A stretch of DNA of 64,000 bases from Litorimonas cladophorae. GTDB lineage: Bacteria; Pseudomonadota; Alphaproteobacteria; Caulobacterales; Maricaulaceae. The DNA is taken from NCBI RefSeq assembly GCF_014652455.1, contig NZ_BMYV01000001.1, positions 1 to 64,000 on the forward strand, written 5' to 3'. Below the pieces are notes generated by a model. That model was not told where the DNA came from. It saw nothing but the letters and a program-made list of their open reading frames with translations, and searched no databases. Positions 96 through 17,781 of the stretch are shown piece after piece. The translations under genes were made by a program, and so were the position numbers. Each line of letters opens with the position of its first letter. Position 1 is the first letter of the stretch.

Positions 96-120
96 CCGAC
101 ATTAGTCATTGAAAGTTTGT

Positions 121-214: not shown

Positions 215-529
215 ATGGATCGTCAAAACATTCGCATCCGGTTGAAGGCTTTCGACCATCGCATTCTGGACACTTCCACTAAGGAAATTGTTTCGACGGC
301 AAAGCGCACTGGCGCTACCGTTCGCGGTCCAATCCCACTACCAACCCGTATCGAGAAGTTCACTGTGAACCGCTCGCCTCACGTTAACAAAAAATCGCGC
401 GAACAGTTCGAAATTCGTACGCACAAGCGTATGCTCGACATCGTGGATCCAACACCGCAGACCGTAGACGCGCTTATGAAGCTCGACCTCGCTGCTGGCG
501 TTGATGTAGAAATTAAGTTGGGAGCGTAA
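215..529 (+). CDS. rpsJ: 30S ribosomal protein S10
   Basis: The 104-residue product begins [19 protein letters not shown] and contains [33 protein letters not shown] in pieces typical of S10. S10 sits in the 30S head and, as NusE, pairs with NusB/NusG in antitermination. It is the first gene of the S10 operon after tuf. rplC starts only one base after its stop, so the two are translationally linked. A weak AGGG lies about 8 nt before the ATG. Confidence 0.97.
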
Positions 530-530
530 A

Positions 531-1268
531 ATGTTGCGTTCAGGGCTACTTGCTAAAAAATTGGGCATGACCCAGGTTTATGACGATGCGGGCAACCACA
601 TTCCAGTGACTGTATTGTCACTTGAGGGCTGTCAGGTCGTTGCATCCAAAACAATCGCTCGTGATGGTTACACGGCGCTTCAGCTTGGTGCTGGCGACGC
701 GAAACCAAAGCGTGTGTCTAAGGCTGAGCGTGAGCGCTTCGCTAAAGCTGGTGTAACGCCAAAGAAAAAATGCGTCGAATTCCGTATCGCTGAGGGCAAT
801 GAGGTTGCTGTTGGTGCCACGATGTTGGCGGATCACTTCGTTCCGGGTCAAAAAATTGACGCGGCTGGCGTAACTGTCGGCAAGGGTTTTGCTGGTGCGA
901 TGAAGCGTCATAACTTTGGCGGCCTTCGCGCGACACATGGTGTGTCTATCTCGCATAGATCGCACGGTTCGACAGGTCAGTGTCAGGATCCAGGTAAAGT
1001 ATTTAAAGGCAAGAAAATGGCCGGGCATATGGGCGCTGTGCGCCGGACTGTTCAGAATCTTGAGGTTGCGCGTGTTGATGCCGAGCAGGGTCTCGTGATG
1101 ATCAAGGGTGCAACGCCGGGCGCCAAAGGTGCATGGATTGAACTGCGCGACGCCACAAAGGGCGTTAAAGTTGATGATCTGCCTATGCCAGGCAAGTTCA
1201 CGATGGATGCGCCTAAGAAAGAGGCTCCAAAAGCCCCTGTTGCAGACAAAAAGGGTGAGGAAGAGTAA
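531..1268 (+). CDS. rplC: 50S ribosomal protein L3
   Basis: At 245 residues this carries the L3 core, including the loop with [17 protein letters not shown] that reaches the peptidyl-transferase centre and the [15 protein letters not shown] segment. A GGAG ribosome-binding site lies inside the end of rpsJ at 521-524. The last 30 or so residues (from about 215) form a Lys/Ala/Glu-rich tail, [18 protein letters not shown], beyond the folded core. Such tails are common in alphaproteobacterial ribosomal proteins and are probably disordered. Confidence 0.97.
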
Positions 1269-1889: not shown

Positions 1890-2182
1890 GCATCGCAGCA
1901 CGTCATTATGATACGGTTACAGCGCCGATTATCACAGAGAAGACGACGATCGTCGCCGAGAATAACCAGGTTGTTTTCGAAGTGCCGCTCTCTTCGTCCA
2001 AGCCTGAAATTAAAGAAGCTATTGAGCAATTGTTCAAAGTTTCTGTCACGGCCGTGAATACGGTTCGCGTCAAAGGTAAAACTAAACGTTTCCGGGGTCG
2101 CCCTGGCAAGCGTAACGATATCAAGAAGGCTTACGTCACGTTGAAAGACGGCGACAGCATTGATATCGCGACAGGATTGTAG
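1886..2182 (+). CDS. rplW: 50S ribosomal protein L23
   Basis: The 98-residue product contains [21 protein letters not shown] and [20 protein letters not shown], hallmarks of L23 at the polypeptide tunnel exit, where trigger factor and SRP dock. Its ATG overlaps the rplD stop as ATGA. The length is normal for bacterial L23. Confidence 0.97.
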
Positions 2183-2191
2183 GGGTTAACA

Positions 2192-3028
2192 ATGGCATTG
2201 AAGACATTCAATCCGACGTCTCCTTCGCGCCGCAACCTGGTTCAGGTTGACCGCTCGGAGCTCCATAAAGGACGTCCGGAAAAAGCACTTACCCACGGTC
2301 TGACAAAGTCTGGTGGTCGTAACAACACGGGTCGCATTACAATGCGCCGTCAAGGTGGTGGCCATAAGCGTCTCTATCGCATGGTTGATTTCAAACGGAA
2401 CAAGCGCGACGTCGCGGCTGAAGTTCTGCGCTTGGAATATGATCCGAACCGGACGGCATTCATCGCGCTCATTCAATATAAAGATGGTGAGAAAGCTTAC
2501 ATCTTGGCTCCGCAGCGCCTTGCTGCTGGTGACACAGTAATCTCTTCTGATCGTGCAGACGTAAAGCCGGGCAACACGATGTCCCTTCGCGTTATGCCTG
2601 TCGGTACAATCATCCATAATATTGAGTTGAAGCCTGGCAAGGGTGGCCAAATGGCTCGCTCTGCTGGTACATATGCTCAGTTGGTTGGTCGTTCTGAAGG
2701 CTATGCTCAAATTCGTCTGAAGTCCGGCGAAATGCGTATGGTTCACCAGACCTGTCTGGCGACTGTTGGTGCGGTTTCAAACCCGGATCACATGAACATC
2801 AATCTTGGTAAGGCTGGCCGTAAGCGCTGGCTTGGCAAGCGTCCGCAGGTTCGCGGCGTTGCTATGAACCCGGTTGATCATCCACATGGTGGTGGCGAAG
2901 GCCGTACATCTGGTGGTCGTCATCCAGTGACACCTTGGGGTAAGCCGACAAAGGGTGCTAAGACGCGCTCTAATAAAGCTACTGACAAATTCATCATTCG
3001 TTCGCGCCACGCGAAGAAAAAACGCTAG
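2192..3028 (+). CDS. rplB: 50S ribosomal protein L2
   Basis: The protein has 278 residues, close to the usual 273-280. It opens [20 protein letters not shown] and holds the strongly conserved [16 protein letters not shown] segment near the peptidyl-transferase centre, which includes the histidine tied to activity. L2 is a primary 23S rRNA binder and is needed for subunit joining. It lies 9 bp after rplW in the S10 operon. Confidence 0.98.
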
Positions 3029-3040
3029 GGAGCGCGGAAC

Positions 3041-3319
3041 ATGCCACGTTCAGTTTGGAAAGGTCCGTTTGTTGACGGATACCTCCTGAAGAAAGCCGAA
3101 GCGACACGTGCTGAAACACGTCGTAAGCCGATCAAAACTTGGTCGCGTCGCTCAACGATTATGCCGTCTTTTGTCGGTTTGTCTTTTCAGGTTCATAACG
3201 GTCAAAAATTTGTCCCCGTCACAATTGACGAAGACATGGTCGGGCATAAGCTCGGCGAATTTGCTCCGACACGGACTTATTACGGTCACTTGGCCGATAA
3301 AAAAGCCAAGCGGAAGTAG
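3041..3319 (+). CDS. rpsS: 30S ribosomal protein S19
   Basis: The 92-residue product reads [18 protein letters not shown] and then [22 protein letters not shown], matching S19 of the 30S head, where it pairs with S13 near the A site. A GGGAGCGG stretch precedes the ATG. Length and gene order (rplB-rpsS-rplV) are standard. Confidence 0.98.
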
Positions 3320-3325
3320 GGCGTC

Positions 3326-3781
3326 ATGGCAAAGCAAAAAAATCCCCGTCGCGTTGGCGACAAAGAAGCGCGCGCAAAGCTGCGTATGATCCGCATCAGT
3401 CCTCAGAAGCTGAACTTGGTCGCACAGCTTATTCGCGGTAAAAAAGTTGAAACAGCTTTGGCTGACCTTCAGTTTTCGCACAAACGTATTTCTGGTGACG
3501 TTAAGAAGGTGCTCGAGAGCGCTATCGCAAACGCTGAAAATAATCATGGTCTCGATATCGATAGCCTGATCATCACAGAAGCTTATGTTGGCAAGAACTT
3601 TGTGATGAAGCGCTTCCGTGCTCGTGCACGTGGTCGCGGTGCTCGCATCTTGAAGCCGTTTTCTGAGTTGACGATCGTTGTCAAAGAAGTTGACGAAGCT
3701 GAAATCGCAGCACGCGCTGATAAAAAATCCAAAAGAAAAGCGGCTAAAGACGCCGCGATCTTGAAGAGTGAGGCTGCGTAA
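3326..3781 (+). CDS. rplV: 50S ribosomal protein L22, with C-terminal extension
   Basis: L22 lines the exit tunnel; the core is seen in [19 protein letters not shown] and [17 protein letters not shown]. At 151 residues it is longer than the usual 110-127. The extra length is a C-terminal tail from about residue 120, rich in Ala, Lys and Asp ([21 protein letters not shown]). The stop shares one base with the rpsC start (TAATG), so the genes are translationally coupled. Confidence 0.96.
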
Positions 3782-4518
3782 TGGGTCAGAAGATTAATCC
3801 AATTGGCTTGCGTCTCGGTATCAACCGGACTTGGTCATCGCGCTGGTACGCAAATACTGCCGAATATGGTGATTTGCTTCATCAAGACTTGGCAATCCGT
3901 TCGTTCCTTATGGGCGAATTGAAGAACGCGTCTGTTTCGCGTATTGTTATTGAACGTCCGCACAAAACTTGCCGTGTCACAATTTACACGGCGCGTCCGG
4001 GTGTTGTGATTGGTAAAAAAGGTTCAGACATTGAGGTTCTTCGCAAGAAGGTTGCTGATATGGTTGACGGCGAAGTCTTCATCAACTTGATCGAAGTTCG
4101 TAAGCCTGAAGTTGATGCATATCTCGTTGCTGATGGTATTGCTCAACAGCTTGAGCGTCGTGTGTCTTTCCGTCGTGCCATGAAGCGTTCTTTGCAGAGC
4201 GCTATGCGTATGGGTGCCGTTGGTTGTAAGATCAAACTTGGTGGTCGTCTTGGTGGAGCAGAGATTGCTCGTGTTGAGCAGTATCACGAAGGTTCCGTAC
4301 CTTTGCATACAATGCGCGCCGACATCGATTACGGTACGGCCCGTGCTATGACAGCAATGGGTATCATCGGGATCAAAGTCTGGATCAACAAAGGCGAGAT
4401 CATGGAACATGATCCCTATGCGCACGAAAAGCGTATGGCTGAGCAAAGCAATGAGCGTTCGCGCGGTAATGACCGTTCGGGTGGTGGTCGTGACCGCCGT
4501 CCAGCGCGTTCAAACTAA
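3781..4518 (+). CDS. rpsC: 30S ribosomal protein S3
   Basis: The 245-residue product starts [18 protein letters not shown]. It carries the type II KH domain with [18 protein letters not shown] (about residues 70-90) and the S3 C-terminal domain with [18 protein letters not shown]3 forms part of the mRNA entry channel and helicase. The last 25 residues are a low-complexity Arg/Ser/Gly tail ([20 protein letters not shown]). Confidence 0.98.
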
Positions 4519-4534
4519 TTAAGGGCTAAGAGCA

Positions 4535-4948
4535 ATGTTACAGCCAAAGCGTACAAAATTCCGGAAGGCCCATAAGGGCCGGATTAAGGGCATGGCCAAA
4601 GGTGGCTCCTCCCTGACATTCGGATCTTATGGTCTTAAGTCCCTTGAGGCTGAACGCGTCACTGCGCGTCAGATTGAGGCGACACGTCGTGCTATCACAC
4701 GTCACATGAAACGTGCTGGTCGCGTTTGGATCCGCATCTTCCCAGATGTGCCTGTGACGAAGAAGCCGACCGAAGTCCGTATGGGTAAAGGTAAGGGTTC
4801 TGTAGAATTCTGGGCCTGTAAAGTTAAACCCGGTCGGATCATGTTTGAAATTGATGGTGTTTCTGATGATGTCGCGCGTGAAGCGCTGCGCCTCGGTGCT
4901 GCCAAATTGCCGGTGCGGACGAAAATCGTCACGCGTCCGGGCGAATAG
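4535..4948 (+). CDS. rplP: 50S ribosomal protein L16
   Basis: This 137-residue protein begins [19 protein letters not shown] and includes [20 protein letters not shown], the L16 signature near the A-site tRNA elbow. Length and position between rpsC and rpmC are normal. The ATG is preceded by AAGGGCTAAGAGCA, which gives an acceptable ribosome-binding site. Confidence 0.98.
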
Positions 4949-4959
4949 GAGAGGCGATC

Positions 4960-5166
4960 ATGAAAGCCGAAGATATCCGCGCATTCTCAGCCGACCAACT
5001 CACAGACGAGTTGTTGTCGCTGAAGAAAGAGCAGTTCAACCTGCGTTTTCAAGGTGCAACGGGCCAGTTGGAAAAAACTGCGCGCGTGCGTCAAGTTCGT
5101 CGCGACATTGCTCGCATCAAGACAATTCAGGCTGAGAAGAAATCAGCTTCGAAAAAGGAGGCGTGA
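4960..5166 (+). CDS. rpmC: 50S ribosomal protein L29
   Basis: A 68-residue, mostly helical protein: [19 protein letters not shown], then [20 protein letters not shown] and [11 protein letters not shown]. These are the two antiparallel helices of L29, which sits beside L23 at the tunnel exit. An AGGAGAGG site lies just upstream of the ATG. rpsQ begins 3 bp after its stop. Confidence 0.97.
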
Positions 5167-5169
5167 TCC

Positions 5170-5403
5170 ATGCCTAAACGTATCCTACAAGGTGTCGTTG
5201 TCTCCGATAAAACGGACAAGACTGTTGTTGTTAAAGTAGAGCGTTCTTTTCTGCATCCATTGCTGAAGAAAACGATCCGCCGGACAAAAAAATATCACGC
5301 CCATGACGAGACAAACTCGGTCAAGGTCGGAGAGCAGGTGCGCATTATCGAATGTCCACCGAAATCAAAACTGAAGACCTGGGAAGTCGTCACAGCGAAG
5401 TAA
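5170..5403 (+). CDS. rpsQ: 30S ribosomal protein S17
   Basis: A 77-residue OB-fold protein, [20 protein letters not shown], followed by [23 protein letters not shown] and a KLKTWEVV tail, all typical of S17, which binds 16S rRNA early in assembly. It is the last gene of the S10 operon proper. An AAAAAGGAGGCG site (about 5153-5164, inside rpmC) serves it. Confidence 0.97.
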
Positions 5404-5440
5404 TTCGCCCTGACGAGACTGCCAAGCTTAGGAGAATCGC

Positions 5441-5824
5441 ATGATTCAAATGCAGACAAATCTCGACGTCGCCGATAATTCCGGTGCCCGTCGCGTCCAG
5501 TGCATCAAGGTGCTGGGCGGGTCCAAGCGTCGTTACGCTAGTGTTGGAGACATTATCGTCGTCTCCATCAAAGAGGCTCAGCCGCGCGGTAAAGTGAAAA
5601 AGGGTGACGTTCGTCGCGCTGTTGTTGTTCGTGTCCGTAAAGACATCCAACGCCGCGATGGTTCGGTTATTCGTTTTGACGGAAATGCCGCAGTTATCAT
5701 TAACAATAATGGCGAGCCGATTGGCACGCGGATTTTTGGCCCAGTGCCGCGCGAACTTCGTGCGAAATCGAGCCCGACTAAAAATCTGATGAAAATCGTC
5801 TCTCTCGCACCAGAGGTCCTGTAG
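5441..5824 (+). CDS. rplN: 50S ribosomal protein L14, with a small insertion
   Basis: L14 opens the spc segment. The protein starts [20 protein letters not shown] and ends [11 protein letters not shown], as in the family. The length is 127 residues against the usual 122. The extra residues lie near position 110-115, where [13 protein letters not shown] replaces the short RAK-x-MKI seen normally. L14 contacts 16S rRNA in bridge B8 and is the RsfS docking site. A TAGGAGAATCGC site precedes the ATG. Confidence 0.97.
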
Positions 5825-5826
5825 TC

Positions 5827-6147
5827 ATGGCTGCTAAGATCAAAAAAGGCGATTACGTCGTTGTCCTTTCGGGCGGTGACAAAGGTCGTAAGGGCGAAGT
5901 CCTTAAAGTTCTTCCAAAAGAAGAGCGCGTCGTTGTCAAAGGCGTCCGTTTGGTGAAACGTCACGTGAAGCCAAGCCAGGCTGAACCTGAAGGCGGCATC
6001 AAGTCGTTCGAAGCGCCAATTCATGTCTCAAATGTTGCTCACATTGATCCAAAAGATAATGTTGCGACCCGCGTAGGCTTCAAAGTCTTAAAAGACGGCA
6101 AGAAGGTCCGCGTGGCCAAAAAGTCGGGAGAAGTCATCGATGGCTAA
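5827..6147 (+). CDS. rplX: 50S ribosomal protein L24
   Basis: The 106-residue protein has the KOW motif near the N-terminus ([20 protein letters not shown]) followed by [13 protein letters not shown]24 is one of the two assembly initiators on 23S rRNA. It starts 2 bp after rplN and overlaps rplE by 8 nt (6140-6147), so translation is tightly coupled. Confidence 0.97.
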
Positions 6148-6694
6148 GCCGTATACACCTCGTTTGGCCGCCCTGTATCAGGACGAAATTCGTGCCAAGA
6201 TGCAAGAGCAGTTTAACTACACGAACTCCATGCAAATTCCGGCAGTCGAAAAGATTGTCTTGAATATGGGTCTCGGAGAAGGCGTTGCCGACAAGAAGAA
6301 GGTTACTGCTGCCATTGAAGAGCTTACGCTCATTGCTGGTCAGAAACCTGTTCCAACTGTCGCAAAGAAATCTATCGCGGGCTTTAAACTTCGCGATGGT
6401 ATGGTTATTGGCGCGAAGGTTACCTTGCGTCGCGACCGTATGTTTGAATTCATGGATCGTTTGGTCAATATCGCATTGCCACGGGTTCGTGACTTCCGCG
6501 GATTGAACGGAAAGAGTTTTGACGGCAACGGCAATTACGCTATGGGCCTGAAAGAACATATCGTTTTTCCTGAGATTGACTATGATAAAGTCGAGCAGGT
6601 TCGTGGTATGGATATTGTGGTGCAAACTAGCGCCAAAACCGATGAAGAAGCTAAGGCATTATTGGCCGCGTTTGGATTCCCTTTCCCAAAATAA
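6140..6694 (+). CDS. rplE: 50S ribosomal protein L5
   Basis: A 184-residue protein with [37 protein letters not shown] and the [20 protein letters not shown] loop typical of L5, the 5S rRNA binder that contacts P-site tRNA and bridge B1b. Its start lies inside the end of rplX. The following 77-bp gap before rpsN is the largest in this part of the spc segment. Confidence 0.98.
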
Positions 6695-6771
6695 CGGGAT
6701 TGACCAAACGAACGCAGTAAGTCGAGCGGGTCTGTGTAACGGGCCCAGCAACCTAAGAAGGAATAGATTGA

Positions 6772-7077
6772 ATGGCTAAAGTCAGTGCAGTCGAACGCAA
6801 TTTGAAGCGCCAGCGCCTCGTTGCGAAATATGCTGCGAAACGTGCTCTGTTAAAGGACACGGCTCGCGACAAAGATTTACCCGTAGAAGAGCGTTTTGCC
6901 GCTCAGTTGAAACTTGCTGCTCTTCCGCGCAACTCAGCTGAAACGCGCGTCCGTAACCGTTGTCAGGTTACAGGGCGTCCTCGCGGTTATTACCGTAAGA
7001 TGAAAATGTCTCGTATCGCTATCCGCGATCTGGGCTCCATCGGCCTGATCCCAGGCCTCACGAAATCTAGCTGGTAA
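6772..7077 (+). CDS. rpsN: 30S ribosomal protein S14 (zinc-free form)
   Basis: The 101-residue product ends [20 protein letters not shown] and [20 protein letters not shown]. It has the long form of S14 without the two CXXC zinc pairs. S14 helps fix the 30S head. The ATG is served by an AAGGA motif in AGAAGGAATAGATTGA. Confidence 0.97.
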
Positions 7078-7089
7078 GGAGAATACATA

Positions 7090-7488
7090 ATGTCATTTTC
7101 TGATCCTCTCGGTGATATGCTCACCCGTATCCGTAACGCCATCATGCGTAACCGTTCGACGGTTATGACACCGGCGTCAAACCTCCGTGGTCGCGTCCTT
7201 GACGTTTTGGCTGACGAAGGTTTTATTCGCGGCTACACTGAAACAACTGACGATGCAGGTTTTCGTGCATTTAGCATTGAGCTGAAGTATTTCGAAGGCG
7301 AAGCCGTCATTCGTGAGATTAAGCGCGTGTCCAAACCGGGCCGCCGTGTGTATTCATCCGTGAAAACACTTCCGCAGGTCCGCAACGGCCTCGGCATCTC
7401 AATCCTATCCACCCCAAAAGGCGTTATGAGTGACGCCGCTGCACGTGAAAACAACGTCGGCGGTGAAGTTCTTTGCCAGGTCGCGTAG
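7090..7488 (+). CDS. rpsH: 30S ribosomal protein S8
   Basis: The 132-residue protein begins [20 protein letters not shown] and ends with [14 protein letters not shown] and GGEVLCQV, matching S8. S8 is a central-domain 16S binder and, in enteric bacteria, represses the spc operon at rplE. A TAAGGAGAATACATA site precedes the ATG. Confidence 0.98.
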
Positions 7489-7497
7489 GAGGGTTTT

Positions 7498-8031
7498 ATG
7501 TCACGTATTGGTAAAAATCCCGTCACGGTCCCTGCTGCGGTTACTCTGACTCAATCTGGTCAAGCGATTACTGTTAAGGGCCCTAAGGGCGAACTTAGCT
7601 TCACACTCCCAGATGCTGTTACTGGCAATTTGGATGGCGACACATTTACGGTGTCTCCGGTCGAAGGTAACAAGAACGCAAAAGCAATGTGGGGCATGGC
7701 TCGCACAATGGTTTTGAACATGGTTGAAGGCGTCACAAACGGCTTCAAAAAGGATCTCGAGCTTCGGGGTGTCGGTTATCGTGCTCAAATGAACGGTAAA
7801 GACCTCACGATGCAGCTCGGTTTCTCGCATGACGTCCACTATCCAGCGCCTGAAGGCATCACAATCAGTTCGTCTAAGCCGACACTGATTTCTGTCGAAG
7901 GTATTGATAAGCAAAAAGTTGGCCAAGTGGCCGCTGAAATCCGGTCCTTCCGGAAGCCAGAGCCTTATAAAGGCAAGGGTGTACGCTATGTCGGCGAGTT
8001 CGTCCGACAGAAAGAAGGGAAGAAGAAGTAA
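7498..8031 (+). CDS. rplF: 50S ribosomal protein L6
   Basis: This 177-residue protein starts [16 protein letters not shown] and has the two L6 half-repeats. The second ends in the conserved [24 protein letters not shown] region. L6 lies at the base of the L7/L12 stalk, near the sarcin-ricin loop. A GGAGGGTTTT site lies right before the ATG. Confidence 0.98.
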
Positions 8032-8033
8032 TC

Positions 8034-8384
8034 ATGAAATCCTCCCGCTCCCTTATGCAGCGTCGCGCGCAACGCGTCCGTCGCCGCCTCAAAAAACATG
8101 CCAATGGCCGTCCGCGCCTTTCGGTTTTCCGCAGCTCGAAAAACATCAGCGCGCAGATCATCGACGACGTAACAGGTACAACTCTCGCTTCTGCTTCCAC
8201 ATTGGAAGACAAGAAAGCCAAGGGTGGCGATGTTGCAGCTGCTGTTCGTATCGGCAAATTGGTCGCAGAACGCGCGGCGGAAGCCAAAGTTGGCGACGTC
8301 GTGTTCGATCGTGGTCCCTATCTTTATCACGGCCGGGTGAAAGCCCTTGCCGACGCGGCTCGCGAAGCCGGTCTGAAATTCTAG
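8034..8384 (+). CDS. rplR: 50S ribosomal protein L18
   Basis: A 116-residue protein with a basic N-terminus ([20 protein letters not shown]) and the core [16 protein letters not shown] and [20 protein letters not shown]. It binds 5S rRNA together with L5. It starts 2 bp after the rplF stop and uses a ribosome-binding site within the GAAGGGAAGAAGAAG tail of rplF. Confidence 0.98.
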
Positions 8385-8395
8385 GAACGTAAAAC

Positions 8396-8980
8396 ATGGC
8401 TCGTAGAGAAGACAACCGTCGCGGTAAACGCGATGAAGAAGACAACGAATTCACAGACCGTCTTGTGCACATCAACCGTGTTGCAAAGACAGTTAAAGGT
8501 GGACGCAACATGTCATTCGCCGCCCTCGTAATTGTGGGTGACGAAAAAGGTCGCGTCGGCTTCGGTAAGGGTAAAGCCCGCGAAGTGCCTGAAGCTATCC
8601 GCAAGGCCTCTGAAGAAGCAAAGAAAACGATGATCCGCGTGCCATTGCGCGAAGGTCGGACGTTCCATCACGATGTACGTGGCCGTCATGGCGCGGGCAA
8701 AGTTGTGATGCGTGCTGCGCCTCCAGGTACTGGCGTGATTGCAGGTGGACCGATGCGTGCCGTTCTCGAATGCCTCGGTGTTCAGGACGTCGTGACCAAG
8801 TCTATCGGCACATCCAACCCATACAACATGGTGCGGGCAACATTCGATGCGCTAAAACGTATGGAAAGCCCACGGACAATCGCGAATAAGCGCGGCAAAA
8901 AGGTCGCTGAGATCGTAAACCGTCGTAATGATGGTGCGTCAGCCCCAGAAGCGCTCGACGCTACTGAAACTGTCTCTTAG
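8396..8980 (+). CDS. rpsE: 30S ribosomal protein S5
   Basis: The 194-residue product has the S5 N-terminal dsRBD-like part ([21 protein letters not shown]) and the C-terminal half with [21 protein letters not shown] and [15 protein letters not shown]5 contributes to decoding accuracy and the mRNA helicase. It is extended slightly at the C-terminus by a low-complexity [17 protein letters not shown] tail. Confidence 0.98.
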
Positions 8981-8991
8981 GAGATTTGAAT

Positions 8992-9180
8992 ATGGCTAAA
9001 AAAGCAACAGTCACCGTGCGCCAAACTGGCAGCGCGACTCGCCGTAAACCAGATCAGCGTGCAACGCTTGTCGGTTTGGGCTTGGGTCGTATCGGAAAAC
9101 AGCGTACGCTGGAAGATACACCCTCTGTGCGTGGTATGATCGCTAAGGTCAGCCACATGATTAAAATCGTAGAAGAGTAG
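8992..9180 (+). CDS. rpmD: 50S ribosomal protein L30
   Basis: I place the start at the ATG at 8992, giving [20 protein letters not shown] and 62 residues. A TTG at 8986 would only add two residues and is closer to the GGAG site at 8980-8983. The core [20 protein letters not shown] and the [14 protein letters not shown] end match L30. It sits between rpsE and rplO, as is usual. Confidence 0.95.
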
Positions 9181-9236
9181 TCTTACATCATCGCCTTCAT
9201 TGGCGATGTTGTTCGAAACCTCTTGGAGACAAGACA

Positions 9237-10196
9237 ATGCGTTTGAACGAACTCAAAGACAATCAAGGCGCCACACACCGCAAAAAGCGGATCGGTCGCG
9301 GTATCGGCTCTGGTAAGGGCAAAACCGGCGGACGTGGTGTCAAAGGTCAAAAATCTCGCTCTGGTGTATCCATTAATGGATTCGAGGGCGGCCAAATGCC
9401 AATCTATATGCGCTTGCCAAAGCGTGGCTTTAACGCCCCGAACGCCAAGACATATCAAGAGCTGAGCATTGATAACCTAAATCGCGCACTCGAAGCTGGT
9501 AAAATTGACAGCAAAACAGACTATGACGGTGCTGCCCTTGTTGAGGCCGGCGTTATTCGTCGCGTCAAAGACGGCGTCCGTTTGATTGGTGCTGGTAAAG
9601 TATCCAAGCCTGTTAAGCTTCACGTTTCTGGTGCTACCAAAGGCGCTATCGCGGCTGTTGAAGCTGCCAAAGGCTCCGTCACTGTTCTAGACGAAGACAC
9701 TGTATATCGCGGTAAAGGCGAGAAGCAGGATCGTTCAGGCAAAGTTTCGAAGGCTGACAAGAAGGCGGCGGCTCTTGCGGCTGCACCCGCTGAAGCGCCA
9801 AAGGCTGAGAAAAAAGCGGCTGCGCCTAAAAAGGCGGCTGAGAAGAAAGCCCCTGCCAAGAAAGCTGCAAAAGCCGAAGATGGCGTGTCTGCTTATCTGG
9901 AGCCGACACAAAAGTTTGACGCTGATGCTGACAACGCTGTTGTTACCAAGATCGAAAAATATCTTGGTGCGTCCTTGAAAAACAAAGATGCGAAATACGT
10001 ATCTTGCACGGACGAGACAGAGCTTGAGACAATCGTCAAAGGCTTCATGAAGAAAAAAATGGGTATCGACGACAAAGACGCCGCGATGGAAAAAGTCAAA
10101 GCTGTCTGTGCAGAAATGAAACCTATGCGCATGAAAAACCGCGTTACTTTCTACTACTTGCTAGCCAAGAACGAAGGCAAGCTCGGCGAATTCTAA
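9237..10196 (+). CDS. rplO: 50S ribosomal protein L15 fused to a DUF2853-like domain
   Basis: Residues 1-155 or so are a complete L15: MRLNELKDNQGATHRKKRIG, GGRGVKGQKSRSG, FEGGQMPIYMRLPKRGFN, and the Rossmann-like end. L15 normally stops near residue 150-160, but this protein has 319 residues. Residues 160-214 are a Lys/Ala/Pro-rich linker (9714-9878). Residues 215-319 form a separate domain with TKIEKYLGASLKNKDAKYV, DETELETIVKGFMKKKMGI and a KNRVTFYYLLAKNEGKLGEF end. I recognise this as similar to DUF2853, a small helical bacterial family normally found as a free protein. The reading frame is continuous and there is no internal start with a clear ribosome-binding site. Function of the added domain is unknown. 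Confidence 0.93.
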   Translation: MRLNELKDNQGATHRKKRIGRGIGSGKGKTGGRGVKGQKSRSGVSINGFEGGQMPIYMRLPKRGFNAPNAKTYQELSIDNLNRALEAGKIDSKTDYDGAALVEAGVIRRVKDGVRLIGAGKVSKPVKLHVSGATKGAIAAVEAAKGSVTVLDEDTVYRGKGEKQDRSGKVSKADKKAAALAAAPAEAPKAEKKAAAPKKAAEKKAPAKKAAKAEDGVSAYLEPTQKFDADADNAVVTKIEKYLGASLKNKDAKYVSCTDETELETIVKGFMKKKMGIDDKDAAMEKVKAVCAEMKPMRMKNRVTFYYLLAKNEGKLGEF

Positions 10197-10204
10197 GCTA
10201 TTCT

Positions 10205-10242
10205 CAAGGCCGAATGCAGATGTAATGTCGCGTTCGGCCTTG
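10205..10242 (+). other. Hairpin between rplO and secY
   Basis: CAAGGCCGAA (10205-10214) and TTCGGCCTTG (10233-10242) form a perfect 10-bp stem with an 18-nt loop. AACATATTTGG follows, not a T-run, so efficient termination is unlikely. It lies in the 133-bp gap where ribosomal protein and translocon expression could be uncoupled. Confidence 0.5.
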
Positions 10243-10329
10243 AACATATTTGGCCTGTTACCACTTGGTACGAATACGCACATCGCGCTTTCACCAAATG
10301 ACGCGACGGACCGATAAAGGGAACGCATA

Positions 10330-11697
10330 ATGGCTTCAGCCTCCGAACAGCTCGCCGCGAATATGAACCTTGGAGTGTTTTCCAAGGCTAAAGAGCTGCA
10401 AAAGCGACTTCTCTTCACTCTTATGATCCTAGTGGTTTACCGTATCGGTACATTTGTGCCGATTCCAGGCATGGACATGGAAGCCTTTCAGGCGGCCTTC
10501 GGATCGGGAACTAGCGGCGGCGGTCTGCTAGACCGTTTCAATATGTTCTCTGGCGGTGCCGTTGAACGGATGGCCATCTTTGCCCTCAACGTTATGCCTT
10601 ATATTTCGGCATCGATCATCATGACCTTGTTGAAGGGGTCGGTCGCATCGCTCAAAGAGCTCGACAAAGACGGCGAGCAGGGTCGCAAGCAGATCAACCA
10701 ATATACGCGTTACCTCACAGTTTTCCTCGCAGCTTTCCAAGCCTTTGGTATCGCGCGTGCGTTGCAAGGCACAGAGGGCGCCGTCATCAATCCAGGACTG
10801 TTCTTCCAAGCCTCAACAGTGATTACGCTTGTTGGTGGAACGATGTTCCTCATGTGGTTGGGTGAGCAAGTTACGGCGCGCGGTGTCGGTAACGGTGTGT
10901 CCTTGATCATCTTTGCCGGTATTGTGGCGGAGCTGCCTAAAGCATTGTTCCAGCTCTTCGGTATGAACCAGTCTGGAGAGATTGGCGAAGCCCTCTTGGC
11001 CATCCTGATTGTGATGTTTATCGGTCTTATCATGCTGATCGTTTATGTAGAACGCGCGCAACGGCGTCTGCGGGTTCAATATCCAAAGCGCCAAATGGCG
11101 GGCGGCAAGCAATTTGGTGGCGAGAATTCCTTCATGCCGCTTAAGCTAAACACAGCGGGTGTTATCCCACCTATTTTCGCAAGTTCCCTTCTTCTACTGC
11201 CGGCAACTTTCGGTCAGATCTTTGTCGGTGGTGATGGCGCTGCCTCGGGCATCATGGGGACTGTGCTTGCATATCTCGGGTATGGTTCGCCGACTTATTT
11301 GGTGCTGTACGGCCTCCTGATCATCTTCTTCTGTTACTTCTATGTACCTTACGTATTCAAACCAGACGATGTCGCGGATAACCTTCGCAAGAATGGCGGC
11401 TTCCTTCCTGGCATTCGTCCCGGACAGCGGACAGCGGAATATCTTAGCTACGTCCTTTCCCGATTGACCTTTATCGGCGCGATCTATGTGGCGTTCGTTT
11501 GTGTGCTTCCAGAGGCATTTATCGCGCGCAGTGGTAATATTCCTGTTTCCGTGGCCATGTTGATTGGCGGTATGAGCTTGCTCATTATTGTTTCCGTTAC
11601 ATTGGACACCGTTGCACAAATTCAGTCTCACTTGATTGCGCATCAGTATGAGGGCCTAATCAAGAAGTCCCGCATGCGTCGCCGCAACAAGACGTAA
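10330..11697 (+). CDS. secY: Protein translocase subunit SecY
   Basis: This 455-residue multi-pass membrane protein forms the SecYEG channel. Visible landmarks are the plug/TM2 region with GGAVERMAIFALNVMPYISASIIM, QYTRYLTVFLA, WLGEQVTARGVGNGVSLIIF, the cytoplasmic loop AQRRLRVQYPKRQ, and PDDVADNLRKNGGFLPGIRPG. The length is slightly above the E. coli 443. It follows rplO with a 133-bp gap that holds a hairpin, and precedes adk by 10 bp, the typical spc-operon end. Confidence 0.98.
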   Translation: MASASEQLAANMNLGVFSKAKELQKRLLFTLMILVVYRIGTFVPIPGMDMEAFQAAFGSGTSGGGLLDRFNMFSGGAVERMAIFALNVMPYISASIIMTLLKGSVASLKELDKDGEQGRKQINQYTRYLTVFLAAFQAFGIARALQGTEGAVINPGLFFQASTVITLVGGTMFLMWLGEQVTARGVGNGVSLIIFAGIVAELPKALFQLFGMNQSGEIGEALLAILIVMFIGLIMLIVYVERAQRRLRVQYPKRQMAGGKQFGGENSFMPLKLNTAGVIPPIFASSLLLLPATFGQIFVGGDGAASGIMGTVLAYLGYGSPTYLVLYGLLIIFFCYFYVPYVFKPDDVADNLRKNGGFLPGIRPGQRTAEYLSYVLSRLTFIGAIYVAFVCVLPEAFIARSGNIPVSVAMLIGGMSLLIIVSVTLDTVAQIQSHLIAHQYEGLIKKSRMRRRNKT

Positions 11698-11707
11698 GAG
11701 GGAACCC

Positions 11708-12334
11708 ATGGCTTTGAATCTCGTTCTCTTTGGTCCGCCTGCAGCAGGTAAGGGTACACAGGCAAAGCGTCTGGTATCCGAACGTAAGCTGGTGCAACTC
11801 TCGACTGGTGATATGTTGCGGGCAGCAAAGCGTTCAGGATCAGAGTTAGGCCTAAAAGTTGCCGACATCATGGATAATGGCAAATTGGTCAGCGATGAGA
11901 TTGTTATCGCTTTGATCGAAGAGCAACTCGACGCGCAGGCGGGTGCCGCAGGATTTATTTTCGATGGTTTCCCAAGAACGGTCGCCCAAGCAGAAGCGCT
12001 CGATAGTGTACTGCAAAAACGTGGCGAATCGGTAGACTCGGTTATCCGTCTCAAAGTAGACGACGCCTCAATCCTAGGACGGATCGCGACTCGCTTTGCC
12101 GAGCAGGGGCGTAAGGATGATAATCCTGAAACCTTCAAGGTTCGCCTAAACGCATATAATACCCAAACCGCACCTTTACTGCCTTATTACTCGGCGCAAG
12201 GGAAGCTGACCGAAGTGGATGGCATGGCGGATATTGAGACAGTTGCGACTTCTATAAAAGAAGTTCTCGATCGTCAGGCTTCTCCGAAAGGTGAGCCGAA
12301 AAAAAGTTTTTTTGCGCGCCTTTTCGGTCGTTAA
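11708..12334 (+). CDS. adk: Adenylate kinase
   Basis: A 208-residue kinase converting AMP and ATP to two ADP. The P-loop is LFGPPAAGKGTQAKRL at residues 7-22, the AMP site is STGDMLRAA, and FDGFPRTVAQAE is the conserved adenylate kinase motif. The LID region (residues 120-140, TRFAEQGRKDDNPETFKVRL) is the short form without a zinc site. A C-terminal basic tail (SPKGEPKKSFFARLFGR) extends past the usual end. A GAGGGAACCC site precedes the ATG. Confidence 0.97.
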   Translation: MALNLVLFGPPAAGKGTQAKRLVSERKLVQLSTGDMLRAAKRSGSELGLKVADIMDNGKLVSDEIVIALIEEQLDAQAGAAGFIFDGFPRTVAQAEALDSVLQKRGESVDSVIRLKVDDASILGRIATRFAEQGRKDDNPETFKVRLNAYNTQTAPLLPYYSAQGKLTEVDGMADIETVATSIKEVLDRQASPKGEPKKSFFARLFGR

Positions 12335-12351
12335 GAAAAACGAAGAACACT

Positions 12352-12467
12352 GAAGGCATTTGCCTTCGAAGATATCAGTACGAGTGGTTGACGCCACTCG
12401 TTAATAGGACTAAGTGACCCGCTTTCGCGGCAGACGTCATCGGCTACCGTTCCATTTGTTATGGAAC
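12352..12467 (+). promoter_or_regulatory. Leader with three hairpins upstream of rpsM
   Basis: Three perfect inverted repeats lie in a row in the 182-bp adk-rpsM gap: GAAGGC/GCCTTC (12352-12367), CGAGTGG/CCACTCG (12381-12400) and GTTCCAT/ATGGAAC (12449-12467). None is followed by a T-run. The arrangement looks like a structured leader that could host translational control of the alpha operon. In E. coli the equivalent leader binds S4; here the ligand is not known and regulation is inference. Confidence 0.45.
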
Positions 12468-12516
12468 AAGCAGACGCGCCTCGCCGAACCGGAACCGGAT
12501 TGAATTGGAGGCCGAA

Positions 12517-12885
12517 TTGGCTCGTATTGCTGGGGTAAATATCCCGACCAACAAACGCGTTGAAATCGCGCTACGTTATATTCACGGCATCGGTCCGGCG
12601 AAAGCCACCGAAATCTGTGATAAAGTGGGAATCGCGCGCGAACGTCGCGTGCATGACCTAACAGATCAGGAAGTTCTCCAGATCCGCGAAACAATTGATG
12701 CCGACCATCAGGTCGAAGGCGATCTGCGCCGCGAAGTTTCCCAAAACATCAAACGTTTGATGGATATGGGTAACTACCGTGGTCTGCGTCACCGTCGTGG
12801 CCTGCCCGTTCGTGGTCAGCGTACACACACAAACGCTCGCACCCGCAAGGGCCCCGCTAAAGCCATCGCCGGCAAGAAGAAGTAA
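12517..12885 (+). CDS. rpsM: 30S ribosomal protein S13 (TTG start)
   Basis: The expected S13 N-terminus, (M)[19 protein letters not shown], begins exactly at a TTG codon at 12517, with GGAG at 12507-12510 seven bases before it. There is no in-frame ATG near. This gives 122 residues, the family norm; a second TTG at 12505 would add MEAE and overlap the ribosome-binding site. The C-terminal [20 protein letters not shown] is diagnostic. S13 contacts P-site tRNA and S19 in the 30S head. Confidence 0.95.
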
Positions 12886-12896
12886 GGTAGTCCACA

Positions 12897-13286
12897 ATGG
12901 CTAAAGAACCAGGCCGCGTCCGCCGCGCCGATCGGAAAAACATTACGTCCGGCGTCGCGCACATCAACGCAACATTTAACAACACAATGGTCATGATCAC
13001 CGACGCACAGGGTAACGCTGTGTCATGGTGTTCCGCCGGTGCTATGGGCTTTAAAGGCTCACGTAAATCTACGCCTTATGCGGCTCAGGTTGCTGCGGAA
13101 GAAGCGGCTCGCAAAGCTGCTGAGCATGGTATGAACACGTTGGAAGTCAATGTGAACGGGCCAGGTTCGGGTCGCGAATCAGCTGTCCGTGCTTTGGCTG
13201 CCGCAGGTATGAACATCACGACTATTCGTGACGTGACACCAATCCCACATAATGGCTGCCGCCCACCAAAGCGCCGCCGCGTCTAA
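12897..13286 (+). CDS. rpsK: 30S ribosomal protein S11
   Basis: The 129-residue protein shows [20 protein letters not shown] and ends [19 protein letters not shown], which is the invariant S11 tail. S11 lies on the 30S platform next to the E-site mRNA. It follows rpsM by 11 bp. After its stop a weak GTCC-AAGG-GGAC hairpin plus T6 (around 13297-13314) could trim some transcripts before rpoA. Confidence 0.98.
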
Positions 13287-13387
13287 TTTAGACGTCCAAG
13301 GGGACTTTTTTCGGCGTGTCTTTTCATTTGGAAGGGCGCGCCAAACGCTTACTTGGCCTCTAAAGCCAAATTAGGAAGGCGAAACTC

Positions 13388-14404
13388 GTGATTGAAAAAA
13401 ACTGGCAAGAACTTATCCGTCCGATCAACCCAGAGATCGAACCTGGTCGTGATCCGTCTCGTAAGGCGCTAATCATTGCTGAGCCGCTTGAGCGTGGCTT
13501 TGGTATGACACTTGGTAACGCATTGCGTCGTGTACTTTTGTCTTCCCTACAGGGTGCGGCCGTCTCTGCCGTGCAAATCGACGGTATCGTGCATGAATTC
13601 ACATCCATCCCAAATGTTCGCGAAGATGTCACAAACATCGTCCTGAACATCAAAGGCTTGGCTGTTCGTCTTCACGCTGACGGTCCAAAAAAGCTTCTTC
13701 TACGCAAGCAGGGTGCAGGTCCTGTCACCGGCGCTGACATTGAAGAAACAGCTGATGTTGAAATTCTAAACAAAGACCACGTCATCTGTACCGCTGATGA
13801 GGGCGCTGACATCCGTATGGAACTTACAGTCACCTCCGGCAAAGGCTATGTGCCTGCGTCTGCATCGCGTCCTGAAGATGCGCCAATTGGCTTGATTTCC
13901 ATCGATGCGCTCTATTCCCCAGTTAAGCGGGTGGCTTACCGCGTTGAAGACACACGTGAAGGCCAAGTTCTCGATTATGATAAACTCATCATCGATATCG
14001 AAACAAATGCCGCTGTCACGCCAGAGGATGCTATCGCTGTTGCAGCGCGTATCCTGCAAGACCAGTTCCAAGTGTTCGTCAACTTTGACGATCCAGAGGA
14101 TGTCTCTCGCGGCGAAGAGAAGCCAGAGCTCGACTTTAACCCAGCGCTCCTGCGCAAAGTTGACGAGCTTGAGCTCTCTGTTCGTTCGGCCAACTGCTTG
14201 AAGAACGACAACATCGTTTACATCGGCGACCTTATTCAGAAGTCCGAAGCTGAAATGCTCCGTACACCGAACTTTGGTCGTAAATCACTCAATGAGATCA
14301 AAGAAGTTCTTGCTGCCATGGGTCTACACCTCGGCATGGATGCGCCAAACTGGCCGCCAGAGAACATCGAAGAGCTTGCAAAGAAATATGACGATCACAT
14401 CTAG
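13388..14404 (+). CDS. rpoA: RNA polymerase alpha subunit
   Basis: This 338-residue subunit begins at GTG (13388), with [17 protein letters not shown]. The N-terminal assembly domain holds [23 protein letters not shown] (about residues 30-52). The C-terminal domain (alpha-CTD, about 250-325) holds [20 protein letters not shown] and [20 protein letters not shown], which bind UP elements and activators. An AGGAAGGCGAAACTC site precedes the GTG. rpsD is absent between rpsK and rpoA, as in other alphaproteobacteria. Confidence 0.98.
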
Positions 14405-14452
14405 GCTTTCGGCTTAGATTGATCCCAACGAACACCTTAGAGGAATACCATC

Positions 14453-14863
14453 ATGCGTCATAAGATGGCCCACCGTAAACTGAACCGCACAGCGTCTCAC
14501 CGCAAAGCGATGTTCGCAAATATGTCCAGCTCGCTTGTCGAGCACGAGCAAATCGTAACGACACTGCCAAAGGCGAAAGAACTTCGTCCTTTCGTTGAGA
14601 AGCTCGTTACGCTTGCGAAAAAGGGTGACCTGAATTCCCGTCGTATTGCGATCTCTCGCATGCGCAACAAAGAACAAGCTAAGAAGCTTTTTGACATCCT
14701 TGGTCCTCGCTATGCTGAGCGTCCAGGTGGCTATATCCGCATCATGAAAGCGGGCTTCCGCTATGGTGACAACGCGCCAATGGCCGTTATCGAATTCGTC
14801 GACCGTGATGAGAGCGCTAAAGGTAAAGTTGATCGCGAACGCGCGGAAGCTGTTGACGCATAA
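14453..14863 (+). CDS. rplQ: 50S ribosomal protein L17
   Basis: A 136-residue protein with [20 protein letters not shown], then the helical core and [28 protein letters not shown] split over the end. It sits near the exit tunnel. The last 20 residues ([17 protein letters not shown]) are a charged tail. This is the last gene of the alpha operon, followed directly by a strong terminator. Confidence 0.97.
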
Positions 14864-14882
14864 CCGCTTCAATATCTCGAAT

Positions 14883-14916
14883 AAAAAAAACCGTGGCCTT
14901 GGCCGCGGTTTTTTTG
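14883..14916 (+). terminator. Intrinsic terminator of the ribosomal superoperon
   Basis: ACCGTGGCC, a TT loop and GGCCGCGGT form a 9-bp stem with one G-T pair. It is flanked by A8 and T7, so it could act in both directions. It lies 19 bp after the rplQ stop. Confidence 0.93.
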
Positions 14917-15037
14917 TGCCTGCTGTTTCGAAACAAGTTCACGACGGCATGGTTAGTCGCTTCGATATGCCATTTTGAATATGGACCAACTTCAGCTAGT
15001 GTTGTCTCTGTCGGCGTAGCGATAAGGATAAGATGTT

Positions 15038-15511
15038 ATGGTTCAGCTTAAGATTAATGGTCAATCTGCGGAATTGGATGTATCTCCTGATACGCCTTTG
15101 CTCTGGGCTGTGCGCGAACAGCTTGGTCTAACGGGGACAAAATTTGGATGCGGCATTGCGATGTGCGGCGCCTGTACGGTTCACGTTGACGGACAACCCG
15201 TGCGATCTTGCTCTACGGCCATTGCCGACGTCGAAGGGGCAAATGTGACGACCATCGAAGGCATCAAGAACGCCGACGGAACCTTACATGCCGTCCAACA
15301 AGCCTGGGTCGATCATCAGGTCCCACAATGCGGATATTGTCAGTCTGGACAGATCATGAGCGCGGTCGCTTTACTGCGCGATAGGCCTAACCCCACCGAT
15401 TCGGATATTGATACGGCGATGTCGGGCAACATTTGTCGCTGCGGAATGTATGACCGTATTCGCGCCGCGATTAAAACCGCTGCGAAAAACACCAAGGTGG
15501 TGGGAGGTTAG
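15038..15511 (+). CDS. (2Fe-2S)-binding subunit of a molybdenum hydroxylase (IorA-like)
   Basis: The 157-residue protein is a small xanthine-oxidase-family iron-sulfur subunit. The plant-type 2Fe-2S site is in [20 protein letters not shown], and the second cluster site is [12 protein letters not shown] plus [15 protein letters not shown]. It passes electrons between the molybdopterin subunit encoded 2 bp downstream and an acceptor. No FAD subunit is nearby, so it fits the two-subunit isoquinoline 1-oxidoreductase or aldehyde dehydrogenase (IorAB) class. The substrate cannot be told from the sequence. It has no signal peptide of its own. Confidence 0.9.
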
Positions 15512-15513
15512 TT

Positions 15514-17781
15514 ATGGCTCAGGATATTATGACAGCGACTGACACTCCGGAAAATAACGGCAAAAAGACGAAGGTGAAGAAGAAGGGGCGTTGGACCCGT
15601 CGGGGTTTCATCGGTGCGGGCTTGGTGGCCGGTGGCGCACTCGTGGTCGGCGTTGCGATTCGTCCCGGCGACCGCACAGGCACGCTAGAAAAATATGTCG
15701 CTGGAGAGGGCGAACATTTGGTCGCCGCTTGGGTGAAAATCTCAGAAGATAATAAAATCACAGCGATTATCCCCCATGGTGAAATGGGCCAGGGTATTCA
15801 CACGGCCTTATCTGCCATGCTCGCCGAGGAGATGGACGCGGATTGGGACGCTCTTGATATCATCGAGGCCCCAGCTGAAAAAGACTATGCGAATTTTCCA
15901 CTCGTGCGCGGGTTTGCAACTGGCGGCAAGAAAGTCCCAGGTTTCGTGTTTGATACGCTCAACGGCGCAATGCTTGGCATAGCGAAAAAGATGGATATGC
16001 AAATTACGGGCGGATCAACGTCGGTCCGTTTCACCGGTACGGGTGCCATGCAAACGGCAGGTGCTGCGGCGCGTGAGCTGATAATGAAAGCCGCCGCCAA
16101 AGAATGGGACGTTCCCGTGTCGGCTCTGCGTACATCCAAAAGCAGAGTTCACCATGACGGCTCCAACCGCAGCGCGCCTTATGGTCAATTTGCGGCAGCC
16201 GCGTCCGAGATGACGCCAAACCTGCATCCGAAACTTAAATCCCGCAAAGACTATACGTTGATGGGGCAATCGCTTCCACGTGTTGATATTCCGGCGAAGG
16301 TTGATGGCACAGCGAATTTCGGGATTGATGCCAAAGTTGACGGCATGAAATATGCGACCGTCATGGCGGCCCCCGTACATGGTCAAACGGTCGCGAGCTT
16401 AGACGCGTCGGCTGCCGAGGCCATGCCTGGCGTCATTTCTGTTCATAATATGGGCGGTTATGTCGGCGTCGTGGCAGAGGGCTACTGGCCTGCGCAACAG
16501 GCGCTCTACGCGCTGGATGTGGAATTCACGACGTCAGACGCGAGTACGCTCAGCCAAGAGCAACTCTTCGCTCAATTTGGCGAAGCGCTCGAGACCGGTA
16601 AACGCAAAGTCATGCATAAAGCGGGCAATGTGACAAAGGGGGCCGAAGGTGCAGCCCGTGTAATCGAAGCTGAATATGCCGTTCCCTATCTGGCCCATGC
16701 GTGCATGGAGCCAATGAACGCCACGGCCTGGGTGCGGGACGGGAAAGCCGATATTTGGTGCGGCACGCAAAACCCACTGGGAACCCGCATGGCCGTCGCC
16801 AAAGCGCTCGCATTTGACGCTGAAAACGTCAAACTCAATACGGCCTTTATGGGCGGAGGTTTCGGCCGCCGGGCCATTCCTGATTACGTGTTGCAAGCGG
16901 CTGCGCTCTCACAAGCGTCTGGGCACCCTGTGAAACTGATCTGGAGTCGTGAAGAGACAACGCAACAAGATCATTACCGTCCAGCCGTTTTGGGTCGCTT
17001 TAAAGCCGCTGTCGATGCGGAGGGTATACCGCTGACGTGGGAAAGTGTCTTCAACCACGAAGGCGAACCCAAAGAGGCAAGCGATATTGCCTATAATATC
17101 CCGAATAAAAAGGTCGAAGTCGTCGAGAGCCCGTCTCACACGCGTCTGGGCCCGTGGCGTTCGGTGGATCACACGCAACATGGATATTTCACCGAAAGCT
17201 TCATTGAAGAACTCGCCCATGCCGCAGGTAAAGATGGCTATGAATATCGCCGCGCTTTGCTGGCGGATAAGCCACGCTTTGTGAAGGTTCTGGATGCGGC
17301 TGCTAAACTCGGGAATTGGGGCGAAACCCTACCTGCGGGACAAGCCAGAGGTATCTCTATCGTGGAAAGCTTCATGACCATCTGCGCGCAAGTTGTGACG
17401 GTTGATATGCGCGATGGTGATCCACGTGTTGTGCATGTGGCCTGTGCCGCCGACCCAGGCTTTGCGGTGAATCCTGATGGGTTTGAAGCGCAAATGCAAA
17501 GTGGTATTATTTACGGTCTTTGCGCTGCTCTGAAGGGCGAAATTTCGATTGAGGACGGCGCTGTCATGCAAAGTAATTTCCACGATTACGAAATCCTACG
17601 CATGGACGAAGCCCCAAAAATCGACACGATCATTTTGGAAAGCGATGCCCATATTGGCGGCGGCGGCGAGCCCGGAACACCGCCCATCGCGCCTGCGCTC
17701 GCCAATGCAGTCTTTAACGCAACGGGCAAACGTCTCCGCAAATTACCGATTCGAGATATTGGGTTGGGTGCTGCGAGTTAA
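15514..17781 (+). CDS. Molybdopterin-binding subunit of a xanthine dehydrogenase family enzyme (IorB-like), Tat-exported
   Basis: This 755-residue protein is the catalytic partner of the preceding 2Fe-2S subunit. A twin-arginine signal is seen at residues 29-35 (RRGFIGA), followed by a hydrophobic stretch; the long basic N-terminus before it is unusual. Catalytic landmarks include HGEMGQGIHTALSAMLAEEM, MGGGFGRRAIPDYVLQAA, PWRSVDHTQHGYFTESFIEE and GGGGEPGTPPIAPALANA, whose Glu is the expected active-site base. The small subunit probably travels with it to the periplasm, as known for IorAB-type enzymes. The electron acceptor is probably a cytochrome, not seen here. Confidence 0.9.
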   Translation: MAQDIMTATDTPENNGKKTKVKKKGRWTRRGFIGAGLVAGGALVVGVAIRPGDRTGTLEKYVAGEGEHLVAAWVKISEDNKITAIIPHGEMGQGIHTALSAMLAEEMDADWDALDIIEAPAEKDYANFPLVRGFATGGKKVPGFVFDTLNGAMLGIAKKMDMQITGGSTSVRFTGTGAMQTAGAAARELIMKAAAKEWDVPVSALRTSKSRVHHDGSNRSAPYGQFAAAASEMTPNLHPKLKSRKDYTLMGQSLPRVDIPAKVDGTANFGIDAKVDGMKYATVMAAPVHGQTVASLDASAAEAMPGVISVHNMGGYVGVVAEGYWPAQQALYALDVEFTTSDASTLSQEQLFAQFGEALETGKRKVMHKAGNVTKGAEGAARVIEAEYAVPYLAHACMEPMNATAWVRDGKADIWCGTQNPLGTRMAVAKALAFDAENVKLNTAFMGGGFGRRAIPDYVLQAAALSQASGHPVKLIWSREETTQQDHYRPAVLGRFKAAVDAEGIPLTWESVFNHEGEPKEASDIAYNIPNKKVEVVESPSHTRLGPWRSVDHTQHGYFTESFIEELAHAAGKDGYEYRRALLADKPRFVKVLDAAAKLGNWGETLPAGQARGISIVESFMTICAQVVTVDMRDGDPRVVHVACAADPGFAVNPDGFEAQMQSGIIYGLCAALKGEISIEDGAVMQSNFHDYEILRMDEAPKIDTIILESDAHIGGGGEPGTPPIAPALANAVFNATGKRLRKLPIRDIGLGAAS

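Follow-up and report, generated by a model that had tools for sequence, protein, structure and literature searches.

HHH-tailed forms of two ribosomal proteins, L21 (PRK12278) and S2 (PRK12311), are already known from NCBIfam, both composed of the ribosomal protein, a linker and a C-terminal HHH (helix-hairpin-helix) domain. In ubiquitin-L40, a ribosomal fusion of the cleaved type, the partner is freed by proteolysis. Outside the ribosome, the HHH domain forms the tail of NuoE (PRK12373), a subunit of complex I, and of PhaH of Caulobacter crescentus (NF045508). According to the accessible part of a review, which is our second-hand source on PhaH, the N-terminal end of this protein binds granules and its C-terminal HHH domain binds DNA non-specifically; PHB granules are held along the nucleoid by the HHH domain and are disorganised without PhaH (PMC13052382). 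Protein-O of the Dinoroseobacter shibae RC-LH1 (PDB 8yy9 chain O) comprises a membrane anchor, a flexible loop and a C-terminal HHH domain of the same family, and the accessible part of the work on RC-LH1 calls the role of such domains obscure (PMC12079452). The kinship with PhaH suggests a use for the protein-O domain. DUF2853 (PF11015), finally, has a solved stand-alone representative (PDB 2pyq), and a literature search on this domain led to work on Bartonella transcriptomes.

The rplO gene of Litorimonas cladophorae resembles these systems in its layout of ribosomal protein, linker and C-terminal domain, but its L15 ends in DUF2853 and not in HHH, the domain that ends L21 and S2 in the NCBIfam models. 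The tail has the same domain and fold as stand-alone DUF2853, which is here fused instead of free-standing. The HHH family of L21 and S2 also occurs on L15, L3 and S2 of the clade examined here, and it is the family of the protein-O domain (PDB 8yy9 chain O, 9wqv chain a). PhaH likewise joins a large assembly to a C-terminal HHH domain, in the place where phasin-like proteins of the clade have DUF2853; yet its cargo is a PHB granule and not a ribosome, DNA binding is reported in the accessible part of the review for PhaH only (PMC13052382), and L15 of L. cladophorae has DUF2853 in place of the DNA-binding HHH end. Protein-O differs in being bound to a photosynthetic complex, and DUF2853 is not reported for it. 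Among NCBIfam models, none surfaced for a comparably tailed L15 or L3, and a literature search for similar fusions of L15 or L21, whose scope excluded most subscription papers, yielded none. Within these searches, what appears new is that DUF2853 serves as an end-piece, that L15 and L3 are among the carriers and that tails are swapped.

The rplO Gene and Its Product

The window analysed is a stretch of 64,000 nucleotides of the L. cladophorae genome and contains the following features:

531..1268, + strand: rplC (L3), with a short tail that bears neither HHH nor DUF2853; HHH sits on the L3 tail in relatives
9225..9228, + strand: GGAG, putative and likely ribosome-binding site of rplO, read from the sequence
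9237..10196, + strand: rplO, L15-linker-DUF2853 fusion gene, 319 aa (open frame, Pfam, NCBIfam)
9237..9686, + strand: L15 body, residues 1-150 (TIGR01071 match over residues 2-148)
9687..9893, + strand: Lys/Ala/Pro-rich linker, residues 151-219 (pLDDT <50 at 153-214)
9894..10184, + strand: DUF2853 domain, residues 220-316 (PF11015, 4e-27; 2pyq fold match, TM 0.83)
10330..11697, + strand: secY, the gene after rplO, 79% identical to that of the sister species G008

The continuous frame of 319 residues claimed by the original prediction is borne out: it opens with an ATG, 8 bases after the end of the GGAG motif, and has no internal stop. The gene lies in the spc operon between the genes for L30 and SecY, both of which we take to be such from their sequences, and it encodes the only L15 of the genome, in which one place covers the L15 part. 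NCBIfam recognizes L15 (TIGR01071, 5e-43, 146.4 bits versus a cut-off of 77.95), and Pfam detects Ribosomal_L27A at residues 76-149 (2.3e-13) and DUF2853 at residues 220-316 (95.2 bits versus a cut-off of 25). The identity of the tail was thus predicted correctly: the isolated domain also matches the sequence of 2pyq (2.5e-12), and an AlphaFold model of the domain alone (pLDDT 94.2) fits the 2pyq structure with an E-value of 2.3e-4, the sole structural match found by Foldseek at E <=0.001. A likeness to EF-hand proteins was considered and rejected, as the S100 proteins ranking second and third (E 0.5 and 1.7) are too weak. In full-length AlphaFold models, made for 13 fusion proteins, the L15 core and the tail domain are confident (block means 81-91, residues about 71-150 and 221-310), and pLDDT falls below 50 at residues 1-54 and 153-214. 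The Lys/Ala/Pro linker of the original prediction is accordingly present and predicted to be disordered, with a length of about 60 residues by pLDDT rather than 55.

The L15-DUF2853 fusion is certain. An assembly error or frameshift that joined two genes is refuted: other genomes have the same frame, and purifying selection acts on the sequence before and after the junction. Relative to G005, G011 and G010, dN/dS is 0.027, 0.029 and 0.013 for the tail domain, rough values at a tail dS of 1.2-1.8, and 0.028, 0.035 and 0.053 for the L15 body; among three more distant pairs, the tail gave 0.078 with G007, and the other two were saturated. Measured against the other ribosomal protein genes of the window, the tail has a codon adaptation index (CAI) of 0.80 and L15 one of 0.77, compared with 0.68 in secY and 0.64 in the membrane paralogue. 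Codon bias is weak, supporting evidence only, because the stand-alone DUF2853 gene of the same genome reaches 0.76, like L15. A separate start for the tail was looked for and rejected: no ATG, GTG or TTG ahead of the domain is conserved among the L15-DUF2853 genes, and in 10 of 23 there is none from the L15 match through the first dozen codons of the domain. Judged from the single rplO gene, the low dN/dS and the codon adaptation typical of ribosomal proteins, every 50S subunit would carry one DUF2853 domain, provided that the tail stays uncut.

Tails on L15, S2 and L3 across the Clade

We surveyed 61 genomes of the clade, i.e., marine, Hellea/Algimonas-like Caulobacterales, for HHH and DUF2853 on ribosomal proteins; L29, S17 and the proteins encoded outside the operon, except S2 and L21, were left out. 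The operon stretches were taken mainly from genomes with a long L15 frame, and the shares therefore describe a non-random sample. Owing to contig ends and stretches missing or not fetched, the state of L15 was unreadable in 11 genomes, that of S2 in 8 and that of L3 in 22.

The same fusion recurs in related genomes: among 50 readable L15 tails, 23 end in DUF2853 (L. cladophorae included), 19 in HHH, one (G091) in HHH followed by DUF2853, and 7 in neither. Records of Hellea, Algimonas and uncultured Caulobacterales make up the named near relatives, and tailed L15 was seen in genera g1, g2, g6, g11, g12, g18 and g19 of the family to which the window belongs. S2 ends in HHH in 29 of 53 readable genomes, in DUF2853 in 11 and in neither in 13, and L3 ends in HHH in 14 of 39 and in neither in 25. 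The 17 other ribosomal proteins of the operon (871 instances) carry neither HHH nor DUF2853, and the domains are thus confined to 3 of 20 proteins surveyed. At least one domain tail is present in 29 of the 32 clade genomes in which L15, S2 and L3 are all readable, the exceptions being G073, G074 and G086.

G086 has kept one HHH frame and a frame of 54 residues with a remnant of DUF2853. The small genomes G068, G073 and G074 (1.8-2.0 Mb) lack any DUF2853 match at E 0.01 and any clear HHH tail, each having one weak HHH match in a frame of 426-431 residues; the tail system is therefore dispensable. Their joint absence fits a single system and also plain genome reduction. The L15 tails of G073 (L201), G068 (L203, running into the contig end) and G074 (L209) bear neither domain and are, where read, rich in Lys and Ala in G073 and G068.

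The linkers differ in charge, with a median net charge of +12 for L15 genes with a domain tail (n=43) and an acidic median of -5.5 for S2 (n=40). Among the domains, HHH is acidic on S2 and L3 (mean net charge -6.0 and -7.3), and DUF2853 is near neutral on L15 and S2 (+1.1 and -1.2).

Distribution outside the Clade

In a sample of 385 genomes of the class, DUF2853 was found in nine, and the eight other than L. cladophorae encode it in open frames of 106-157 residues; free-standing DUF2853 is the usual form in this sample, though not a defining rule of PF11015, and that of L. cladophorae is fused. When the same 385 genomes were queried with L15-HHH, all matches listed outside the own genome ended at or before position 239 of 303 and thus reached no further than the edge of the HHH domain. 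The five readable L15 tails outside the clade measure 8-15 residues, and all 16 readable S2 proteins carry neither domain. L15 frames of 324, 283 and 267 residues were seen in G219, G340 and G511, which belong to another family (f64).

Counted by eye among the matches listed, the L21 match extends through HHH in 44 of 72 genomes of the family outside the clade (in two of the 44 in two pieces), and in the remaining 28, mostly of g7 and g8, it is shorter or partial and does not span a full HHH. Inside the clade, all 43 listed matches end by position 122 of 220, and none has HHH. Further families of the same order have L21-HHH as well. The L21 tail is thus missing from the clade and from some of its neighbours, and the clade has tails elsewhere on the ribosome, which amounts to one contrast and not to a series of independent ones.

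Exchange of Tails between Close Relatives

A quick species tree of 54 genomes, based on concatenated bodies of ribosomal proteins, separates 49 genomes of the genera with tailed L15 from five outside genomes by a fully supported branch; the outside set, with one genome from each of five genera, does not cover the remaining outside genera of the family. On this tree the tail state changed at least 15 times on L15 and at least 12 times each on S2 and L3, counts that do not separate gain from loss. L. cladophorae and its sister species G008 illustrate such a change: DNA identity falls from 86% in the L15 body to 65% in the linker, 54% in the aligned part of the tail and 45% in the downstream spacer, and rises to 79% in secY, and the two tails, DUF2853 versus HHH, are unrelated. 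The profile looks as if a cassette had been exchanged. The serial tail of L15 in G091 (L214:9427-10704) is a possible intermediate of a swap.

The histories of the domains bear on how often each was recruited. In the DUF2853 tree, L15 of g1, g2 and g12 groups with S2 (support 99), and L15 of g19/g6 and of g11 groups with the phasin type (92). A single clade of all L15-borne DUF2853 is rejected by the AU test (p 0.007); the test does not reject a common clade of L15 plus S2 DUF2853 (p 0.84), which makes one ribosomal entry followed by transfer between L15 and S2 possible. In the HHH tree, L3 forms one clade (100), nine L15 domains group with those of NuoE and the membrane protein, and eleven with those of S2 and L3; one clade of all L15-borne HHH is not rejected (p 0.74). 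Exchange of tails between close relatives is well supported, and the claim is limited to many changes of state; it does not imply that the domains had as many separate origins.

Core ribosomal proteins are generally regarded as slow to change; here three of them, L15, S2 and L3, vary in whole end-domains among close relatives. The swapping of tails is a hint that ribosomes are attached to some other component of the cell.

Other Carriers of the Two Domains

Both domains are also found C-terminally on phasins, HHH is found on NuoE, and both occur together on a protein whose putative assignment to the membrane rests on a hydrophobic N-terminal stretch. The following are encoded in the own genome:

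L139: NuoE-HHH
L003:1-1803 (C1:519640-521442): putative membrane protein with HHH and DUF2853
L002: phasin-like protein with DUF2853
L004: stand-alone DUF2853 gene

Phasin with DUF2853 is present in L. cladophorae and related genomes, and phasin with HHH in G036, a member of another family of the same order, where PF05597 and HHH_5 both score above the Pfam cut-offs. The N-terminal part of the former aligns with the latter (hhalign, 96.2%, 2.3e-9), a comparison between different families and not between sister species. Taken alone, the DUF2853-bearing set is weak against the Pfam phasin models (3 of 8, best 2.5e-4) and matches phasin-related NCBIfam models in 5 of 8 (best 4.5e-6); the L. cladophorae member matches none in either. 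In the PhaH model NF045508, in turn, the L15-HHH tail finds a match in the HHH section (2.2e-16), with a score that stays below the cut-off for the whole protein. On the membrane protein both domains are basic (mean net charge +3.1 for HHH and +9.4 for DUF2853).

The original prediction identified the fusion correctly and saw the clue to function in the L15 site. The fusion stands; the clue lies instead in the set of shared carriers, because HHH replaces DUF2853 in sister species, and S2 and L3 are tailed too. The exchange with HHH, a domain of reported use, provides a testable hint on the role of DUF2853.

A Proposed Role as Interchangeable Tethers

On several carriers one of the two domains takes the place of the other; both therefore probably serve the same end, which by our reasoned guess is that of a tether. 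By analogy to PhaH, we tentatively favour interchangeable tethers by which large assemblies, among them the ribosome, may be attached to a scaffold that they share, perhaps the nucleoid. The product of rplO is an L15 whose flexible, basic arm terminates in DUF2853, and 50S subunits would presumably display this domain. DUF2853 and the unrelated HHH are interchangeable end-pieces in that both occur on L15, S2 and phasins and adjoin each other on the putative membrane protein. DUF2853 would most likely do the job of the PhaH HHH domain, namely to tether a large assembly, here the ribosome, to the shared scaffold, for which the nucleoid would be the first candidate. It would be of little consequence at which point of the ribosome the tether is anchored, and this could be why tails sit on L21, L15, S2 and L3 alike.

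The basic linker of L15 could add a contact to nucleic acid. The acidic HHH of S2 and L3 and the near-neutral DUF2853 of L15 and S2 do not fit plain DNA binding; acidic S2 linkers and acidic S2 and L3 HHH domains weaken the DNA version of the proposal and leave room for a protein scaffold. A wider version, which we regard as doubtful, envisages a plug-in system: HHH and DUF2853 would be exchanged by recombination among L21, L15, S2, L3, phasins, complex I and the membrane protein, ribosomes would share a scaffold with storage granules and respiratory complexes, and DUF2853 would be a new nucleoid- or scaffold-binding domain. The exchange with HHH also raises the possibility that, in some bacteria, a tail covalently joined to a ribosomal protein anchors the ribosome to a structure of the cell.

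The putative membrane protein might instead be a receptor, with which the tails pair to dock ribosomes at the inner membrane. Its two domains lie in series and are basic, in contrast to the neutral or acidic domains of the ribosomal proteins, L15 of G091 has the same order of HHH and DUF2853, and G068, G073 and G074 lack both DUF2853 and clear HHH tails. We nevertheless consider docking unlikely, as the same docking would be required of PHB granules and complex I, and like-to-like pairing is broken in G017, where S2 carries HHH, L15 and L3 carry neither domain, and the membrane protein has DUF2853 without HHH. A role of the tails in ribosome storage or stress, in which they would join one ribosome to another or bind a hibernation partner, might be read from their presence on proteins of both subunits, but such a function leaves the same domains on NuoE, phasin and the membrane protein unexplained and is distinctly unlikely.

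The tails might also be idle decoration, spare domains attached by recombination to tolerant ends of ribosomal proteins and put to no use. In favour of this reading, tail states change fast and tails are missing in small genomes; yet the tail dN/dS is very low and only 3 of the 20 ribosomal proteins are affected, which renders idleness quite improbable. Least of all would we expect, among the functional readings, a cleaved fusion, in which L15 is a mere carrier and the freed tail supplies DUF2853 in a number equal to that of the ribosomes. The linker is long and predicted to be disordered, but a stand-alone DUF2853 gene is already present in L. cladophorae and sister species have HHH at the same place; free DUF2853 is therefore unlikely as the purpose, and this reading is very improbable.

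Additional Features of the Loci

A very stable hairpin without a T run lies between rplO and secY (10204-10243, + strand); the fold of 10190-10300 has a z of -5.7, and 0 of 200 shuffles were as good. Rfam gave no match in positions 1-16000 of the window, the hairpin included, and a PADLOC search for defence systems gave no match. Beside the membrane HHH-DUF2853 gene, the gene directly preceding it is presumably OmpA-like, and a relative of it is present in 24 of 25 such loci scanned. The neighbour of the L. cladophorae phasin-DUF2853 gene, which we take to be Dps-like, was found in no other locus scanned. In G004, a frame of 651 aa (L142:115-2067) ends in the same HHH domain; it seems to us to resemble a wax ester/DGAT-type acyltransferase and is possibly another granule protein. 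Near the phasin-DUF2853 gene of L. cladophorae lies a gene that we assume to encode S16 (L002:2977-3306, - strand), with a long tail of Ala, Glu and Lys, and S16 is also near the phasin-DUF2853 gene in L076, L078 and L097.
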